Source: Micromonospora sp. KC723 (GTDB lineage: Bacteria > Actinomycetota > Actinomycetes > Mycobacteriales > Micromonosporaceae). Taken from it: a stretch of 64,000 nucleotides of DNA. The notes under the pieces were generated by a model. The model was not told where the DNA came from. It saw only the letters and a program-made list of their open reading frames with translations, and did no database searches. The stretch spans positions 1 through 64,000 of the forward strand of contig NZ_SMKD01000004.1 of the NCBI RefSeq assembly GCF_004348595.1, in the 5' to 3' direction. The position numbers and the translations under genes are program-made. This document shows, piece after piece, positions 2,574 to 11,145 of the stretch (the first letter of the stretch is position 1; every line of letters starts with the position of its first letter).

Positions 2574-3412
2574 GTGGGGCTGCTGACCATCGGGGCGTTC
2601 GCCAAGGCGGCGAGCCTGACGCCGAAAGCGTTGCGCCTGTACGACCAGGTCGGGCTCCTGCAGCCGGCCGTGGTCGATCCCGAGTCCGGATATCGAATCT
2701 CAATCTTGCCGTCCGCTACGCCGCCGGCTGCGACACCGGCACCGTACGCGACAGCAACGAGGACACCGCGTACGCCAGCGATCGCTTGCTGGCCGTCGCC
2801 GACGGCATGCGGGGACCCGGCGGCGCAGCAGCCAGCGCGGCTGCCGTCGACGCCCTCAAGCCGTTGGAACTTGCCGACGTACCGGCCGCCGACCTGCTGA
2901 CGATGCTGGCCGGTGCGGTCACCGACGCCGACCGCACCGTGCGTGGGCTGGCGAGCGACGATCACCAGCCGGTCACCACGCTGACCGCGCTGCTGCGCAG
3001 CGGCTCCCCACTAGCCCTGGTGCACATCGGTGACACTCGGGCATACCTGCTGCGCGGCGGTGAACTGTTCCTGCTCACCCAGGACCATACCTGGGTGCAG
3101 ACCCAGGTGGATCAAGGCAAGCTCGACCGGGACCAGGCTGCAGCGCATCCCGAGCGCGCTTTGCTGGTGCGCGCCCTCGGCGGCGGGCACCAGGTAGAGG
3201 CCGACCTTGCGCTACGCACCGCCCTGCCCGGTGACCGGTACCTGCTGTGCTCCGACGGGTTGTCCGCCGTCGTCGACCGGGCCGCCCTGCAGTCGGCGCT
3301 GAGTGCAGCAACCGATCCGGAGCACACCGTGCAGCACCTGATCGGTCTGGCTCAGGACGAAGGGGCGCCGGACAACATCGCCTGCGTCATCGCCGATATC
3401 CGCGTGGTGTAG
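2574..3412 (+). pseudogene. MerR-HTH / PP2C phosphatase fusion with internal deletion and frameshift
   Basis: A GTG start with AGGAGG (2560-2565) opens a MerR DNA-binding head ([19 protein letters not shown], then YDQVGLL and SGYR). After SGYR (about 2690) the frame enters nonsense, while another frame from about 2705 encodes an almost complete PP2C phosphatase: RDSNEDT, LAVADGM, HIGDTRAYLLRGGELF, QDHT, LCSDGLS and DNIACVI. Such MerR-linker-PP2C regulators are known from actinobacteria and have a long segment between the two domains. Here that segment (wing, dimer helix, linker) is missing and the junction is out of frame. A MerR-like promoter candidate starts at 2501 (TTGACC). From ATG 2786 a truncated PP2C could still be made, but it would lack the first metal-binding motif. 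Confidence 0.75.
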
Positions 3413-3607
3413 ACCCCACAGTCCTGGGTGCTGCCTGCGCCACAGCATCCTGCGCAGGGAGCACCCGCACGTCTCTGGGCGTTGATCCAGCCGTTGCCGA
3501 CCACGATGCCACTGGCGTCGCCCACGGAAACGGGTTTTTCTACCCTGGCGGTCCACGTCGTGCCCGGGATGAAATAGCGGTCGTCCGGCAGGATGGAGGA
3601 TGGCCAG

Positions 3608-4225
3608 ATGATCACAATTGGCATTGTCGAGGACGACCCGGGTTACCAGATCGGCCTCAAGGCGATTGTCGGCACGCAGGCCGACTTCCAGTTGGTAACG
3701 GCGGCGCGGTCTGTCGAGGAATTCACGGCACAGCGGGCGTCCGACCTGGACGTCGTGGTCCTCGACCTCGGCCTCCGCGGGGGCGGGCTGGAGGGCGCGG
3801 ATGCCGTACGCGAGGTGGTGGCCGCAAGGCTCAGGGTTCTGGTCGTCTCGATGGTGAGCCAGGAGGTACCGGTCATCGAGGCCATCGGCGCTGGTGCGCA
3901 CGGCTATCTCACCAAGGAGTCCGAGCCCGACGAGATCGTACGGGCAGTGCGTACCGTCGCCGGTGGCGGAACCCATATCTCGCCTACGGTCGCCGGATAT
4001 CTGTTGCGCGACAGGAGCCGGTTGACCGATCGGGAGATCGAGGTGTTGGCGCTGCTCGCCGACGGCGAACGAGCCGCGGACATCGCTCGCCAGCTCTTCA
4101 TTTCGGAGAGCACGGTCAACGGCCACCTGGAGAACATCCGCAACAAGTCCGGCTACCGAAACAAGGCGGACCTCACCCGGCTGGCCTTCGAAAAGGGGAT
4201 CCTGCCGCGCCGACGCCGCCGGTAG
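3608..4225 (+). CDS. NarL/FixJ-type response regulator
   Basis: A 205-aa two-component response regulator. Start ATG 3608 is chosen over 3593 because GGAGGA (3595-3600) fits it and the protein then begins MITIGIVEDDPGY. The receiver domain (1-120) shows the acidic pair EDD, the phospho-acceptor Asp in VVVLDLGLRG, the Ser in VVSMVS and the Lys in YLTKES. A LuxR-type HTH (about 140-200) shows LTDREIEVLALLADGERAADIA and STVNGHLENI. It leads an operon with acyltransferase 4251, hydrolase 4948 and the double histidine kinase 5639, its likely partner. Gaps of 25 bases and then overlaps imply co-expression. Confidence 0.93.
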   Translation: MITIGIVEDDPGYQIGLKAIVGTQADFQLVTAARSVEEFTAQRASDLDVVVLDLGLRGGGLEGADAVREVVAARLRVLVVSMVSQEVPVIEAIGAGAHGYLTKESEPDEIVRAVRTVAGGGTHISPTVAGYLLRDRSRLTDREIEVLALLADGERAADIARQLFISESTVNGHLENIRNKSGYRNKADLTRLAFEKGILPRRRRR

Positions 4226-4250
4226 CCGCGCCACGATGAGGAGAGTCGTC

Positions 4251-4955
4251 ATGCGTACGGGATTCTTCAGGCTGTGCTGCCTTCTCGCGTCGGTACTGCT
4301 GCGCCTCCTGGCGAACGTCGAACTGCCGGACGTGGATGTCCGGAACAGGCGTGGCAGGGGGGTCCTCATCGTCGCGAACCATCGGAGCGTCGTCGACATC
4401 CTGGTGGGCCTCACCCTCTTCGGGCGCTGGCGAGTCACGCCCCGGATGCTGGTCAAGGCGGGCTACTTCGCGGTGCCCGGAGTCGGATTGCTCCTGAAGT
4501 CGATGGGAGCGATTCCGGCGAGCCGGGACACCGCCCGCGAGGCCATGCGCGCCGCGTCGCGAACGTTGGCCGAGGGCGGAAGCGTCGCGCTCGCACCCGA
4601 AGGTCGGATCCCCAGCGCCACGGACCGCACGGAGGGCGTCGGCGAGCTACGCACCGGCGTGGGACGGCTCGCCTCCGAGTTCGGCACCCCGATCGTCGCC
4701 ATCGGTATCGCGAACACGGACGAGGTGTGGCCACTGGGTGTCCGCCGGCCGAGGGTCAGGGTGCGCCGAGCATCCCGACCTACGGTGCGGGTCGCGGCCG
4801 CCCGGTTCGACGTGGACGCGGGAGCTGACCTCGCCCTGGTGATGACCCGCCTGCGTGCGGTGCTGTCGCAGGTTGTCCATCGGGCCGAGACGCCGCCGGC
4901 GGCGGCCGACCGGCAGCCCGCCGGCCAACGAGCCGACGGGAGCCGTCATGGCTAG
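4251..4955 (+). CDS. PlsC-like 1-acylglycerol-3-phosphate acyltransferase family protein
   Basis: A 234-aa membrane-associated acyltransferase. ATG 4251 is preferred over ATG 4236 because GAGGAG overlaps the latter and spaces properly to 4251. The N-terminus carries a hydrophobic anchor (FFRLCCLLASVLLRLL). The acyltransferase block I is NHRSVVD (HX4D) and a block III-like APEGR follows. The family transfers acyl chains from acyl-CoA or acyl-ACP to lysophosphatidate or related acceptors at the inner membrane face. Its 3' end overlaps the next gene by 8 bases. Being locked between a response regulator and its presumed kinase suggests lipid remodelling tied to signalling rather than bulk phospholipid synthesis. 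The acceptor substrate is unknown. Confidence 0.85.
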   Translation: MRTGFFRLCCLLASVLLRLLANVELPDVDVRNRRGRGVLIVANHRSVVDILVGLTLFGRWRVTPRMLVKAGYFAVPGVGLLLKSMGAIPASRDTAREAMRAASRTLAEGGSVALAPEGRIPSATDRTEGVGELRTGVGRLASEFGTPIVAIGIANTDEVWPLGVRRPRVRVRRASRPTVRVAAARFDVDAGADLALVMTRLRAVLSQVVHRAETPPAAADRQPAGQRADGSRHG

Positions 4956-5661
4956 GTACCTCCTGGTGCACGGGTGCGGCCGAAGCGGTCGCGGCCCTGG
5001 CGACGACGAAACGGCGCTGCGTACGATCAACGTGGGTCTGCGCGGGGCCGGGTCAACCACGATTCCGCCGGGTGACTTCGCCGGGGTGCGCGTGGCCGAC
5101 GTGTTCACCGCGCCGTCGCAAGCACGCTGGGCGCAGGCGTTGCCGTACCAGGTCCTCCGACAGGCGTACCACTTCGTCACCGACGCGTCGCGGCGCGTTC
5201 GGGCGACCGAGGCGGTGGCCGGCGCGATCACCCGGGACACCCGGATCCTGATCGCGCACTCGTTGGGCTCGGTCGCCGCGTACGACGCCCTGTGCCTGCT
5301 GCCGCGGCACCACGTCACCCACTTCCTGACGCTCGGCTCGCCGCTGGCGATGCCGCACCTCGTGCGTGGCCGCGTGACCGCCTTCACCGCGTTCGGCAGG
5401 TACGCGTGGCCCCGATCCCTCGCCCGGTGGATCAACTTCTTCGACGCTCGGGATCCGATCGCACGGTGGGCTCTACGCCGGCGTTTCGGCGACGGGACCC
5501 GGATCGAGGACCGCCGGATCCGGCTCGTCGTGGGCGGCCCGCACCGGCTGTTGGCCTACCTCGCCTCCCAGGAGGTGATCTCCTCGCTGGCCGAGGCATC
5601 GCGCTCGACCCAGACCGCGACCACCTCAGGGGGGCACAATGACGTCCGCACACCTGGCTGA
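4948..5661 (+). CDS. Small alpha/beta-hydrolase (lipase/LCAT-like)
   Basis: A 237-aa intracellular hydrolase that starts at ATG 4948 inside the acyltransferase stop region and ends 23 bases inside the kinase gene, so translation is coupled on both sides. The fold signatures are LLVHGCG near the N-terminus, nucleophile Ser in IAHSLGSVAAYDAL, LTLGSPLAMP, a likely acid in FFDARDPIA and a late His in GGPHRLLAYL. This matches the LCAT/PGAP1-like serine-hydrolase pattern acting on lipids or acyl esters. Pairing with PlsC suggests a deacylation/reacylation couple. No signal peptide. Function inferred from fold and neighbours. Confidence 0.75.
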   Translation: MARYLLVHGCGRSGRGPGDDETALRTINVGLRGAGSTTIPPGDFAGVRVADVFTAPSQARWAQALPYQVLRQAYHFVTDASRRVRATEAVAGAITRDTRILIAHSLGSVAAYDALCLLPRHHVTHFLTLGSPLAMPHLVRGRVTAFTAFGRYAWPRSLARWINFFDARDPIARWALRRRFGDGTRIEDRRIRLVVGGPHRLLAYLASQEVISSLAEASRSTQTATTSGGHNDVRTPG

Positions 5662-8149
5662 CCTTCGTCTCGTCCGGATCGCTCGGGGGTTGTGGAACGC
5701 CGCCGCGAACCTCCTCCGCAAGCATCTGCCCGCACACCTGGAGAGGATCGGCCTGCGGGACCCCGCAGGTGACGAACTCCACCAGCGGTTCGCGGTGCGT
5801 AGTGCCGACTGGGTGGTGGTCGCCTGCTTCGTGCATCGGATCGTGGCAACGCCGCTCGTGCTGATCGGTGGGCTGTCGACGATCGGTCCGACGGCCGACC
5901 GGTACGGCCCGGTCGTGGTCGGCCTGATGGTGTGGAACGTGTTCCTCACGGTCGGGGTGCTCCGGCAGCGGATTCGGCCGTTCCTGGCCGGTCGGGCCTT
6001 CGCGGTCGTCGACCTCGCCCTGGCCGCCGGGGTCAACCTGTGGGGGGCCGCCGTCCTGCCGCAGGGCGAACTTCTCCACCCCTACAAGGACGTCTACTGG
6101 ATCTACGCGATGGGCACGGTGGCCGGCTGGACCGCCCTCAAGGGCGTCCGGGCCGGACTGTGGCTGGCCGCGGCCGGCGGGATCCTCCTGCTGGGCATGG
6201 TGGGCCTCAATGGGGCGAGCCTCTCCGGAGCAGGGTGGGGCCATCTCCTGTCCCGGTTCGGTTGGCTCCTGTCCGCGGTGCCGTTGCCGCTCATCGTGCT
6301 GCGGCTCGGCAGACAGGGTGCCGGGCTGGGCAATACCGAGGGCCGCCGGGCGGGTCGCGCGTTGGAGCGCATCCGCGCCCTCCGGACGATGCACGACACG
6401 GTGCTACAGACCCTGGCGCAGATCGCGCAACGAGCGGTCGCCGTCGACCTGCCGGCCGGCGAGCGGGCCCGACACATCCACCGGCTCGCCGCCGAGCAAC
6501 TCGCGGGCCTCGATCGCGCTATCCGCGCCGACGACCGGGACCGTACGGGGCTCGTCGACGGGCTCCAGGGTCTCGTGCGGCGGTTCGGCGAGGGGAATCT
6601 CCGGGTGGACCTGCTCGCCGACGAGCTTGCCGCCGACCCGCCCCCGGCTGTCACGGCCGGACTGCTGGCGGCGGTTCAGGAGGCGCTGACGAACGTCCGC
6701 AAGCACGCCCGGACCGACCGCGCGATCGTGCGTGCGGCGACCACGGGCCGGGGGTACGAGGTGGTGATCCGCGACTACGGTCGGGGCTTCGACCCGGAGG
6801 CGCACCGCTCGGGCGTCGGCATCTCCGAGTCGGTCTACAGACGGATGGCGGAGATCGGGGGCAGGGCGTCGATCTGGTCCGAGCCCGACCGTGGAACCCG
6901 GGTGCGGCTGGCGGTCGACTTCGGGGCGGCGAGCCGGGCCCGTCGTTTCGGTATCGCACCCCACGCGGCCATCACCCTCGGTCCCACGACGTCGACCAGC
7001 GTGGACGCGCTGACGAACCAGGCGTTGGCCTGGTTCATCGTCGCGGCTCTCGCGTACCGGGTGGCGCTCAGCCCGCTCCAGGTCGGTACCCTGTTCGCGA
7101 ACCTGGACCCTCGGCGCGCCTGGCTGTTCTTCGCCGCGATCGTCGGCGTCTTCGCGTTCGACCTCGCGCTGCTCATTGTGCTCCTGATGGGGCGGTTCGG
7201 CAGGCTGTTCCGGTCGCGTGCCCTCCTCGTCGTCGACGTCGGCCTGACCGCGGGGCTCAACATCTGGTCGGCATTCCTGCTGCCGGCCGGAACCTTGCTC
7301 GCGCCCGGGCATGAGGTGCTGTGGGGGTACATGCTCGGCGCGGTCGCGTTCTGGACCGGGCTACGTGGAGTCCGCACCGGACTCGCCGTCGTCGTAGGTG
7401 GAATCCCGCTTCAACTCGCCATGGCCGCGGCCAACCAGACCGCGCTCAGCCCGGGGTTGTGGCCACAACTGGTGGCCCGGCAGGGGTGGTTGGCCGCCAC
7501 CGTCGTGATCGCCTGGCTGTTGACCCGGCTCGCCCGACGCGGCGCCCAACGGGCCGTCGACGAGGGCATCAAGACCGGCCTCGCGATCGAACGCACCTGG
7601 GCACTACGCGATCTCTACGCCGAGGTGGCCCGGTCGCTGACCGCGATCACCGCGAGGACCTGCCAACCCGTCACGCACGAGGATCTGATGGACATCCGCG
7701 GTACGGCGCTGGACCAGGTCAACCGGTTGCGTGAGGTCATCGACCAGGAGCGCGGCGGCGGCCCGAGGTTTCGGCTCGCCGCGGAACTGAGCCGGCTGGC
7801 CGGTACCTTCCGAAGCCACGGCCTGCGGGTCGAGCTGGTGACCTCTCAGCTGACCTCCGACCCGCCACCCGAGGTGAGGGAGGCGATCGTCGCGGCGGTG
7901 GCGGAGGCACTGCGCGGGGTCGCTGGGCACGCCGCGGTGGCGCACGCGGTGGTGCGGGCCAGTAACGCCGACGACGGTTTCGAGATCAGTGTCCGTGACC
8001 ATGGCCTCGGCTCGCCGGCTCAAATGCAGGCGAGCGGAGCGCTGATCAACGATCGGTTGGCAACGGTCGGTGGGCTGGCGGAGATCCGCTGCGAGCGGGG
8101 CAACGGCACCCGGATCCGGCTTCGTTGGCGGCCCTCCGGAATGCCCTGA
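5639..8149 (+). CDS. Tandem double sensor histidine kinase; second module degenerate
   Basis: An 836-aa integral membrane protein made of two homologous NarX/DesK-type modules. Module 1 (about 50-430): several membrane helices (roughly 55-225), H-box RTMHDTVLQ with phospho-acceptor His252, N-box QEALTNVRKHA with Asn352, and G-box RDYGRGF. Module 2 (about 455-836) repeats the same helices (480-630) and ATPase fold, but its H-box is RDLYAEVAR (His to Tyr660), its N-box AEALRGVAGHA has Gly760 for Asn, and only RDHGLG of the G-box survives. Module 2 therefore looks like a pseudokinase fused to an active kinase, a covalent heterodimer. It is the last gene of the coupled operon starting at 3608. 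No separate sensor domain is visible, so sensing is probably within the membrane. Confidence 0.88.
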   Translation: MTSAHLADLRLVRIARGLWNAAANLLRKHLPAHLERIGLRDPAGDELHQRFAVRSADWVVVACFVHRIVATPLVLIGGLSTIGPTADRYGPVVVGLMVWNVFLTVGVLRQRIRPFLAGRAFAVVDLALAAGVNLWGAAVLPQGELLHPYKDVYWIYAMGTVAGWTALKGVRAGLWLAAAGGILLLGMVGLNGASLSGAGWGHLLSRFGWLLSAVPLPLIVLRLGRQGAGLGNTEGRRAGRALERIRALRTMHDTVLQTLAQIAQRAVAVDLPAGERARHIHRLAAEQLAGLDRAIRADDRDRTGLVDGLQGLVRRFGEGNLRVDLLADELAADPPPAVTAGLLAAVQEALTNVRKHARTDRAIVRAATTGRGYEVVIRDYGRGFDPEAHRSGVGISESVYRRMAEIGGRASIWSEPDRGTRVRLAVDFGAASRARRFGIAPHAAITLGPTTSTSVDALTNQALAWFIVAALAYRVALSPLQVGTLFANLDPRRAWLFFAAIVGVFAFDLALLIVLLMGRFGRLFRSRALLVVDVGLTAGLNIWSAFLLPAGTLLAPGHEVLWGYMLGAVAFWTGLRGVRTGLAVVVGGIPLQLAMAAANQTALSPGLWPQLVARQGWLAATVVIAWLLTRLARRGAQRAVDEGIKTGLAIERTWALRDLYAEVARSLTAITARTCQPVTHEDLMDIRGTALDQVNRLREVIDQERGGGPRFRLAAELSRLAGTFRSHGLRVELVTSQLTSDPPPEVREAIVAAVAEALRGVAGHAAVAHAVVRASNADDGFEISVRDHGLGSPAQMQASGALINDRLATVGGLAEIRCERGNGTRIRLRWRPSGMP

Positions 8150-9329: not shown

Positions 9330-10205
9330 GTGCGGACGGTGGAGCGGCTCCAACTCGGTGATCACGTCTGCGCCCTCGTCGACGGTGTCGATGGCGGGCT
9401 CGAGGTGATCGCGCAAACCGTCGCGGCCGGCCTTGCCGCCGGCGACCGGGTGATGGTGTTCACGGAGTTGGTGCCGCCGGTGCAGGTGCTGGCCGGTCTG
9501 GAGGCCCGCGACGTCCTCCCCGGCCGCGAGGGTCGGGCCGGGCAGGTGCAGGTGTTGTCGGCTCGGGAGGCGTACCTGCCGGCGGGCCGATTTGAGCCGG
9601 CCCGTCTCATGGCATCGCTGCTGGGTTACGTCGAGCGGGCGACGCTTGACGGCTATCCGGGATTGCGCCTGGTCGGTGACATGGCTTGGGCGCTGAGCGG
9701 TCCGCCCGGTGTCGACCAGTTGGCGGGCTACGAGGCGCAGGTCAACCACCTCTACATGGATGGAAGGGCGCTCGGTGTCTGCGTCTACGACCGGCGTGCC
9801 TTCGACGGTGACCTGCTGCAGCGGATCTCGTACGCGCACCCCGCGACATGCGCGACGGCGGTGGGGACTGGCTGGGCCCCGCTGCTGCGTATCCGCCGTA
9901 CCGGCGATCCGTACGGGCTGCGGCTCATCGGTGAGGCGGACCTCAGCAGCGGCCAAGCGGTGGCCGCGGCGGTCGAGGCGCTGGTGGACCAGCAACCCGA
10001 CCCGGCCGCGCCCATCCACATCGATCTGGCGGACCTGCGGTTCGCCGATGCGGCGACCGCCGCGCTGCTGACGCGGCTCGCGCTACGCGCGCCTGCCGGC
10101 GTGCACCTGTTCGGATGCCACGGCCCGGTGGCAAGGGTCCTGGACTGCCTGGGAGTCACCAGGCTGCCGGCGGTACGCTTGACCGCGCCGCCGGGACGGA
10201 GCTGA
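9330..10205 (+). CDS. MEDS-domain / STAS-domain regulator
   Basis: A 291-aa cytoplasmic protein with GTG start. Residues 1-175 match the MEDS (methanogen/methylotroph DcmR-type sensory) fold: LGDHVCALVDG, VAAGLAAGDRVMVFTELV, LRLVGDMAWAL and AYEAQVN-like signals. Residues 190-285 form a STAS domain (YGLRLIGEADLSSGQAV, IHIDLADLRFADAATAALL) as in anti-anti-sigma factors. The phosphorylatable Ser of classic SpoIIAA is replaced in this segment (FADAAT), so switching may not depend on phosphorylation. The next gene starts 4 bases later and joins a MEDS to an anti-sigma-type ATPase, so the two probably form one partner-switching pair sensing a small ligand. Confidence 0.85.
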   Translation: MRTVERLQLGDHVCALVDGVDGGLEVIAQTVAAGLAAGDRVMVFTELVPPVQVLAGLEARDVLPGREGRAGQVQVLSAREAYLPAGRFEPARLMASLLGYVERATLDGYPGLRLVGDMAWALSGPPGVDQLAGYEAQVNHLYMDGRALGVCVYDRRAFDGDLLQRISYAHPATCATAVGTGWAPLLRIRRTGDPYGLRLIGEADLSSGQAVAAAVEALVDQQPDPAAPIHIDLADLRFADAATAALLTRLALRAPAGVHLFGCHGPVARVLDCLGVTRLPAVRLTAPPGRS

Positions 10206-10209
10206 TCGC

Positions 10210-11145
10210 ATGAGTACGACGACCGCGGAACCGTTCACCCATCCGGCGCTGCTGTACCGCGACGACGACGAATACCTGGCCGGTACCGTGCCATTCATCC
10301 GCGAGGGCCTGGCCGTCGGGGAACCGGTCGCGGTGGCCGTGCCCGCCGGCAACCTTGCACTGATCCGGGATGCTCTCGGCGCGGACGCCGAGCGGGTCCT
10401 GCTGCGCGACATGATGGTGGCCGGCCGCAATCCGGGCCGGATCATCCCCACCGTTCTGCTGGCCTTCGCCAACGCCCACCCGGGGCGGCGGGTGCGGTTG
10501 ATCGGTGAGCCGATCTGGGCGGGTCGCAGCGCCACCGAATATCCGGCATGCGCCCAGCACGAGGCGCTGATCAACGCCGCGTTCGCCGGCCGGCCGGCCA
10601 CGATCCTGTGCCCCTACAACACCCGGTTGCTCGACCCGGCGTGGATCGAGGACGCCTACAAGACCCACCCCGTCATGGTCGACGCCGACGGTGGCTTCGA
10701 CAGCGTCCACTACGACGAGCCCGCCGTGGTCGCCGCGGCCTTCAACCTGCCGCTGCCCGACCCGCCACCGCATGCCGCCACTCTCACGATCGACGTGTTC
10801 GCCCTACCGGCCGTGCGGCGTATGGCGGCCGAGTACGCCGAGCGGGCCGGTCTGCCAGCAGAGCGGATCGCCGACCTGGTCCTGGCCGTGAACGAGCTGA
10901 CGACCAACACCGTCCGGCACGGCGGCGGAACCGGGAAACTCGCGCTCTGGGCCGACGATGACCAGGTGGTCTGCCAGCTCGCGGACAAGGGGTGCCTCAG
11001 CGATCCCCTCGCGGGACGCATCCCCGTGCCGGCCGACGCGCTCGGCGGCGGCCGAGGCCTGCTGCTGGTCAACCAGCTGTGCGATCTCGTCCGGGTCTAC
11101 ACGACCTCGGCCGGCACCACCATCCGCGCCTACCTGCACCGCTGA
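10210..11145 (+). CDS. MEDS-domain / RsbW-like ATPase (anti-sigma-factor kinase family)
   Basis: A 311-aa protein directly downstream of the MEDS-STAS gene (4-base gap), in the same operon. Residues 10-185 are a MEDS sensory domain (HPALLYRDDDEYLAGTVPFI, RRVRLIGEPIWAGRS, CPYNTRLLDP). Residues 195-311 are a HATPase_c_2 domain with N-box AVNELTTNTVRHGGG and a G-rich lid (ALGGGRGLLLVNQLCD). Proteins of this build are usually labelled sensor histidine kinase or anti-sigma regulatory factor. They have no H-box and more likely bind a sigma or STAS partner. A hairpin at 11212 probably ends transcription. Confidence 0.87.
   Translation: MSTTTAEPFTHPALLYRDDDEYLAGTVPFIREGLAVGEPVAVAVPAGNLALIRDALGADAERVLLRDMMVAGRNPGRIIPTVLLAFANAHPGRRVRLIGEPIWAGRSATEYPACAQHEALINAAFAGRPATILCPYNTRLLDPAWIEDAYKTHPVMVDADGGFDSVHYDEPAVVAAAFNLPLPDPPPHAATLTIDVFALPAVRRMAAEYAERAGLPAERIADLVLAVNELTTNTVRHGGGTGKLALWADDDQVVCQLADKGCLSDPLAGRIPVPADALGGGRGLLLVNQLCDLVRVYTTSAGTTIRAYLHR

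Follow-up and report, generated by a model that had tools for sequence, protein, structure and literature searches.

Regulation through pseudokinases is a major theme among eukaryotes. In bacteria, Rv0600c and Rv0601c of Mycobacterium tuberculosis constitute a split kinase. Few bacterial histidine-kinase pseudokinases were found in the literature, namely DivL, a laboratory-evolved ChrS and FasC. In this study, we analysed a stretch of 64,000 nucleotides from Micromonospora sp. KC723 (assembly GCF_004348595.1, contig NZ_SMKD01000004.1, positions 1 to 64,000), hereafter the window. A single gene of the window (5639-8149) encodes a DesK-like membrane histidine kinase with intact catalytic boxes and, in the same chain, a second module whose residues support well its designation as a pseudokinase. 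We found no description of fused kinase-pseudokinase chains among the open-licence papers of PubMed Central (PMC) that our searches listed.

The closest described systems share only some of these features. In DivL of Caulobacter, as in the second half (half 2) of the window protein, a Tyr stands where the phospho-acceptor His is expected, and DivL works without kinase activity (PMC4211667). Its N and G boxes are preserved, unlike those of half 2, and the accessible part of that source gives no indication of a fusion to a live kinase. In group A Streptococcus, FasB and FasC form a heterodimer of two membrane kinases, FasC being the proposed pseudokinase (PMC12675982). However, these are separate proteins and it is FasC that supplies the His, which places them nearer to the Micromonospora globbae and G486 pairs described below. 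In C. glutamicum, laboratory evolution gave rise, through a frameshift, to a pseudokinase form of ChrS, and native ChrS and HrrS form heterodimers (PMC9491836). RetS-GacS heterodimers have been described in a review (PMC12189002), and Rv0600c and Rv0601c cooperate with TcrA (PMC9274095). KdpD, a "tandem serine histidine kinase", also has two kinase activities per chain, but its second activity, that of a serine kinase, is linked to a Walker motif and does not come from a duplicated histidine-kinase module (PMC12471899).

The window protein resembles the DesK/NarX/VraS kinases, which we take to be the HPK7 type, in the H-box, N-box and G-boxes of its first half (half 1), in the NarL-type regulator of its gene cluster and in the predicted DesK/VraS fold of half 2. 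It differs from them in having two modules per chain and in leaving the Pfam profile HisKA_3 unmatched. The best NCBIfam match is the MacS family (NF047322), which aligned to two stretches of the protein, the better one in half 1. This profile spans a single module (367 positions) and its score of 107.8 bits lies below the cut-off of 300, so that the window protein was not assigned to MacS.

An intact kinase module and a degenerate copy in one chain

Comparison of amino acids (aa) 1-440 with aa 441-836 by BLASTP returned 36% identity across 373 aa (E=1e-50). Therefore, the duplication is not a matter of chance, and the two membrane-kinase modules that a sequence-only reading of this DNA had noticed in one chain are borne out. 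Each half shows five membrane-like hydropathy peaks, and the structure model adds one helix to each membrane part. An eleventh peak (aa 750-768) falls inside the half 2 N-box helix; it was not counted as a membrane helix. Hydropathy and model helices would fit six membrane helices per half, with both kinase parts in the cytoplasm. The GC content at third codon positions is 0.88 in half 1 and 0.87 in half 2, and GC by codon position is coding-like through to the end of the frame.

Half 1 is apparently a working kinase. Alignment to a profile of related kinases placed His252 in the H-box LRTMHDTVLQTL and Asn352 in the N-box QEALTNVRKHAR, and the G boxes are intact. The H-box reads HDTVLQTL, a phospho-acceptor motif of the HDxxxQ type. 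Both residues are conserved without exception when the window protein is aligned with eight relatives. Pfam HATPase_c scores 41.5 bits on half 1, above its cut-off of 26.4. HisKA_3 (PF07730) matched neither half, and the single-module relative L006 reaches only 17.0 bits with it, under the cut-off of 24.

In half 2, the same profile alignment set Tyr660 opposite His252 (LRDLYAEVARSL) and Gly760 opposite Asn352 (AEALRGVAGHAA), the very replacements that the sequence-only reading had proposed. That reading had also stated that the GxG lid survives, which holds in part. The G1 box (DHGLG) and the last motif (GNGT) are retained, but G2 is lost, with a gap of four residues where half 1 has SGVGISES. 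Taken alone, half 2 remains below threshold in Pfam (HATPase_c, 15.8 bits against a cut-off of 26.4; HATPase_c_2, 17.7 bits). With Tyr660, Gly760 and the loss of G2, the earlier designation of half 2 as a pseudokinase is well supported at the level of sequence, and half 2 probably does not use ATP.

Predicted structure of the second half

An AlphaFold2 model of half 2, built from an alignment of half 1 and 30 relatives, has a mean predicted local distance difference test (pLDDT) score of 76.6, and its ATPase part ranges from 87 to 96 by ten-residue blocks. In a Foldseek search of this model against the PDB, DesK ranks first. The ATPase part superimposes on VraS 4gt8 with a template modelling (TM) score of 0.80 by target (2.2 Å) and on DesK 3ehg with a TM score of 0.81 (2.4 Å). 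DivL (4q20) is also among the matches, and a profile of the relatives of half 1 matches VraS, DevS and DesK in the PDB. Half 2 is thus predicted to retain a HATPase fold of the DesK/VraS type despite its sub-threshold Pfam score; the alignment behind this prediction includes live kinases.

Live and dead kinases are paired repeatedly in Actinobacteria

We scanned 148 loci with a profile of the dimerization and histidine phosphotransfer (DHp) and ATPase domains. Some of these loci cover the same place and two are fillers of 10 bases. The scan revealed 24 distinct two-module proteins encoded by a single open reading frame (ORF), including the window protein; the loci had been picked partly for long open frames, and these counts give no frequency of two-module kinases. 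Of the 23 others, 22 have a first module with both the His and the N-box Asn and a second module with no His at this position and without the N-box Asn or an alignable N-box. A few assignments are weak: L040 has a second module of only 7.6 bits (E 0.4), and for L127, L128 and L131 the match to the first module is fragmented. Two further candidates (L132 and L133) were dropped because one module had been split into two matches. The exception among the 23 is a protein of M. globbae (L030), which is considered below.

The same combination occurs in Micromonospora as two adjacent genes, one live and one dead, with overlapping open frames (L136, L137 and L138). Our genome searches mostly scored part of the first-look candidates of each genome and were therefore not exhaustive: up to 21 candidates per genome in the search for the dead partner (49 genomes), and 4, 2, 3, 6 and 11 in the searches of 201, 394 and 296 genomes, 151 relatives and 160 genomes, respectively. 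The search detected a dead partner in 44 of the 49 Micromonospora genomes, at only 31% identity in one of them (G006) and as a partial match in a few. In the window's own genome, this search found none. Fused proteins of genomes G145 and G132 match the dead partner as well, in their second halves (E down to 6e-12).

In the 30 best two-gene loci (L244-L273), the live gene is always upstream. Once aligned, all 30 live proteins have the His and none of the 30 dead ones does, Ser (19), Gly (10) or Thr (1) standing in its place. The median ratio of nonsynonymous to synonymous substitution rates (dN/dS) is 0.43 for the live and 0.50 for the dead genes (435 pairs from the 30 loci, which share sequences and are not independent), so the dead partner is somewhat less constrained. 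Eleven pairs of parallel fused proteins gave values of 0.17-0.50 for the dead half and 0.15-0.66 for the live module, with the membrane part included in the dead region and excluded from the live one; these pairs are likewise non-independent. Because dN/dS lies well below 1 in both medians and in each of the 11 pairs, dead partners elsewhere are kept by purifying selection, much as the live partners are. The recurrence of live and dead pairs suggests that the dead copy has a job.

A putative complementary split kinase in M. globbae and G486

The M. globbae protein (L030:256-2676, minus strand) is an 807-aa two-module ORF, present also in L046, L079 and L163. In its first module, a Ser replaces the His, whereas the N and G boxes are intact. 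Its second module carries the H-box HDRVLQTL and has neither the N-box Asn nor a recognisable G1 or G2. Genome G486 (L116) shows a colinear arrangement in two adjacent genes, with open frames at 2615-3829 and 3775-4983 (plus strand, stop to stop). The product of the first has an Arg for the His and intact ATPase boxes, and aligns to residues 16-390 of the M. globbae protein (E=2e-38). The product of the second keeps the His, has lost the ATPase boxes and aligns to residues 426-743 (E=1e-26). These two ORFs were the two best among the matches listed for 296 genomes, and no other copy appeared among the matches listed for 151 relatives. To judge from these residues, the phosphate could be made only by one module and accepted by the other, which would require action in trans.

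Distribution and evolutionary origin of the window protein

The fused protein of the window is rare in our searches. With half 2 as the query, it was found among the matches listed in one of 160 Micromonospora genomes, the window's own; the other 159 yielded, among the matches listed, only single-module kinases of at most 36% identity and short partial matches. No two-module homologue with an intact His and Asn in its second half appeared among the matches listed for these 159 genomes. Likewise, the full protein returned no two-module ortholog among the matches listed for 201 and 394 genomes, and a whole-protein ortholog scan of named genomes gave 24 pattern matches and no relative. The best relative among the matches listed is L006 (41% identity), a single-module kinase with both His and Asn, and L006 and L042 are the two best. 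With a profile of three single-module relatives, the best 80 loci of at least 342 relatives contained one two-module ORF according to the module scan, again that of M. globbae (L163). A further candidate, L191, was rejected as it holds two ordinary kinases side by side.

The other actinobacterial pairs (L035, L053, L136 and others) resemble the window protein in having a live module followed by a degenerate one, either fused or in adjacent genes. In contrast to this similarity, the window protein lies outside their clade. The latter comprises 17 rows of a 43-row tree (support 97/94), from which 34 of the 77 rows of a larger tree had been excluded (L040, L127, L031, L029 and L017 included), several with long branches. 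Placing half 1 in the paired clade costs 45.9 log-likelihood units and was rejected by the approximately unbiased (AU) test (p=0.0017). Forcing both halves into this clade (AU p=0.0024) and joining the window protein with that of M. globbae (AU p=0.002) were also rejected. A single origin of all the fused kinases is rejected by these tests, and the window fusion looks like a separate one.

In the larger tree, the paired clade also held L031, whose short locus showed no dead partner, as well as L026 and L054, the degenerate neighbours of which reach only 14.6 and 13.0 bits. Many losses rather than several gains may lie behind the pattern, as trees only count changes. Against this reading, half 2 groups with the clade of half 1 in the larger tree. 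There, both halves group with the single-module kinases L006, L042, L007, L011 and others (Shimodaira-Hasegawa-like approximate likelihood ratio test, 85). The two halves are sisters with a support of 67/87, and neither the pairing of half 1 with L006 (p=0.16) nor that of half 2 with L042 (p=0.12) was rejected. The halves are likely each other's closest relatives, and both an internal duplication and a fusion of two near paralogues are possible. Long branches meet at three of these joins (half 1 with half 2, the first modules of M. globbae and G486, and their second modules), which may be false.

How the two halves may work together

We consider that the window protein combines a live DesK-like kinase and a pseudokinase as a built-in heterodimer, in which half 2 would serve both as an additional sensor and to restrain or gate half 1. 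We give this reading a probability of about 0.55, and regard it as plausible and as the best mechanism at hand, albeit unproved. DivL and the FasB-FasC heterodimer are precedents for it. Half 1 would autophosphorylate His252 and hand the phosphate to the NarL-type regulator encoded upstream (Table 1). Half 2 would have kept its membrane part and kinase-like fold after losing the usual phospho-acceptor His, and the DHp helices of the two halves would pack against each other. The data themselves show the duplication, the lesions, the predicted fold, the gene cluster and the position outside the other fused clade; phosphotransfer, the partner, the pairing of the halves and the direction of regulation are what we infer here. 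The regulator is likely the partner of the kinase, judging from its position and from two relatives in genome G128: it is 45% identical to the regulator directly behind L006 and 41% identical to that behind L042.

Pairing within the chain would oblige half 1 to phosphorylate His252 in cis: a reaction in trans would bring the live ATPase up against Tyr660 and leave His252 to the dead one. Helix-bundle loops reportedly decide between cis and trans phosphorylation (Ashenberg and others, 2013). Several points weigh against our preferred reading. Should DesK-like kinases act in trans, the pair within the chain would be inactive. The full-chain model is poor (predicted TM score 0.46), with a pLDDT below 50 for most of aa 434-605 and most of the second membrane part, and it does not resolve how the halves are placed. 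The live kinases in the alignment of half 2 could have biased its model to their own fold. No similar regulator turned up next to the remaining 8 of the 10 related kinases for which flanks were examined; some of these flanks span only about 1.5 kb, and those of L007 and L011 several kb. As no ortholog of the window gene was found, dN/dS cannot be calculated for it and selection on half 2 is not measurable. Finally, no significant heterodimer signal was reported for the truncated ChrS pseudokinase in a two-hybrid assay (PMC9491836).

Action of the kinase in trans would require two chains to associate through their first halves. Such a homodimer of chains, with half 2 also paired to half 2 and serving as an attached scaffold or second sensor, is possible but on the whole rather unlikely. 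It is compatible with phosphorylation in either cis or trans, and the two-gene pairs of Micromonospora permit either pairing. Sensor kinases are typically homodimeric, according to the same paper in which FasB and FasC gave a heterodimer and no homodimer signal in a two-hybrid assay (PMC12675982), a result that points the other way. In addition, fusion would be expected to raise the local concentration of the two halves for each other. Half 2 might instead be mainly a docking site for a regulator or a phosphatase, as in the case of DivL and DivK-P, rather than a dimer partner. DivL, with its Tyr, binds a regulator through the docking face of its DHp domain, but it retains its N and G boxes, as half 2 does not, and has no phosphatase activity of its own, as far as the accessible text of PMC4211667 goes; we deem a docking role improbable.

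Half 2 could also be a decaying remnant of the duplication with no function, given that it lacks the His, the Asn and G2 and that the fused gene was seen in only one of 160 Micromonospora genomes, among the matches listed. We hold this to be very improbable. The frame is open to its end and its codon positions are coding-like, even though the halves have diverged to 36% identity; the fold of half 2 is predicted to be intact, and dead partners are conserved elsewhere.

Beyond the window, we tentatively propose, with some reserve, that Actinobacteria have repeatedly made fixed single-chain heterodimers, with at least three origins according to our trees and with two solutions. One, represented by the window protein and the large fused clade, would be a kinase and a pseudokinase acting in cis, provided that the halves pair; the other, represented by M. 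globbae, an ATPase-only and a His-only module acting in trans, with a two-gene form in G486. A chain found in nature that joins a live to a dead module opens long-standing questions to experiment: can a dimer do with a single active site, is phosphorylation a cis or a trans reaction, and how does signalling exploit asymmetry? The M. globbae chain and its two-gene relative pose the same question, with the opposite answer expected. In our view, this wider result, the pairing of live and dead kinases by several routes together with a complementary single-chain case, outweighs the single gene in interest.

The gene cluster

The coordinates of the kinase gene, its parts and the neighbouring genes are collected in Table 1.

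Table 1. The two-module kinase gene and its neighbours in the window (aa, amino acids).
Feature	Position	Strand	Basis
Two-module histidine kinase/pseudokinase gene	5639..8149	+	Single open frame, 836 aa
Half 1 membrane part (about aa 59-221)	5813..6301	+	Hydropathy; model helices
Half 1 DHp and ATPase domains (about aa 225-427), catalytic boxes intact	6311..6919	+	Pfam; profile alignment; alignment of relatives
His252 codon, predicted phospho-acceptor	6392..6394	+	Profile alignment; alignment with relatives
Asn352 codon, N-box	6692..6694	+	Profile alignment; alignment with relatives
Inter-module linker (about aa 433-455)	6935..7003	+	Between aligned halves; pLDDT below 50 at aa 434-467
Half 2 membrane part (about aa 462-629)	7022..7525	+	Hydropathy
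Half 2 DHp and ATPase-like domain (about aa 632-831), degenerate	7532..8131	+	Pfam; profile alignment; structure model
Tyr660 codon, at the His position	7616..7618	+	Profile alignment
Gly760 codon, at the N-box Asn position	7916..7918	+	Profile alignment
NarL-type response regulator, likely partner	3593..4225	+	Pfam Response_reg and GerE
Acyltransferase (PlsC-like)	4236..4955	+	Pfam Acyltransferase, 3.4e-19
Small hydrolase-like protein	4948..5661	+	Weak PGAP1/serine hydrolase matches only

The regulator, the acyltransferase and the hydrolase-like gene all lie upstream of the kinase gene. With the starts chosen, they are separated by 10 bases and then by overlaps of 8 and 23 bases, the last one being between the hydrolase-like frame and the kinase gene. 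For the hydrolase-like gene we picked the ATG at 4948, a longer alternative being the GTG at 4855; its product has no clear match in Pfam or NCBIfam. Downstream of the kinase gene, two genes on the plus strand (9330-10205 and 10210-11145), with 4 bases between them, encode MEDS-domain proteins, one with a STAS and the other with a HATPase_c_2 domain. These two proteins may form a pair of the sensor/anti-sigma type.

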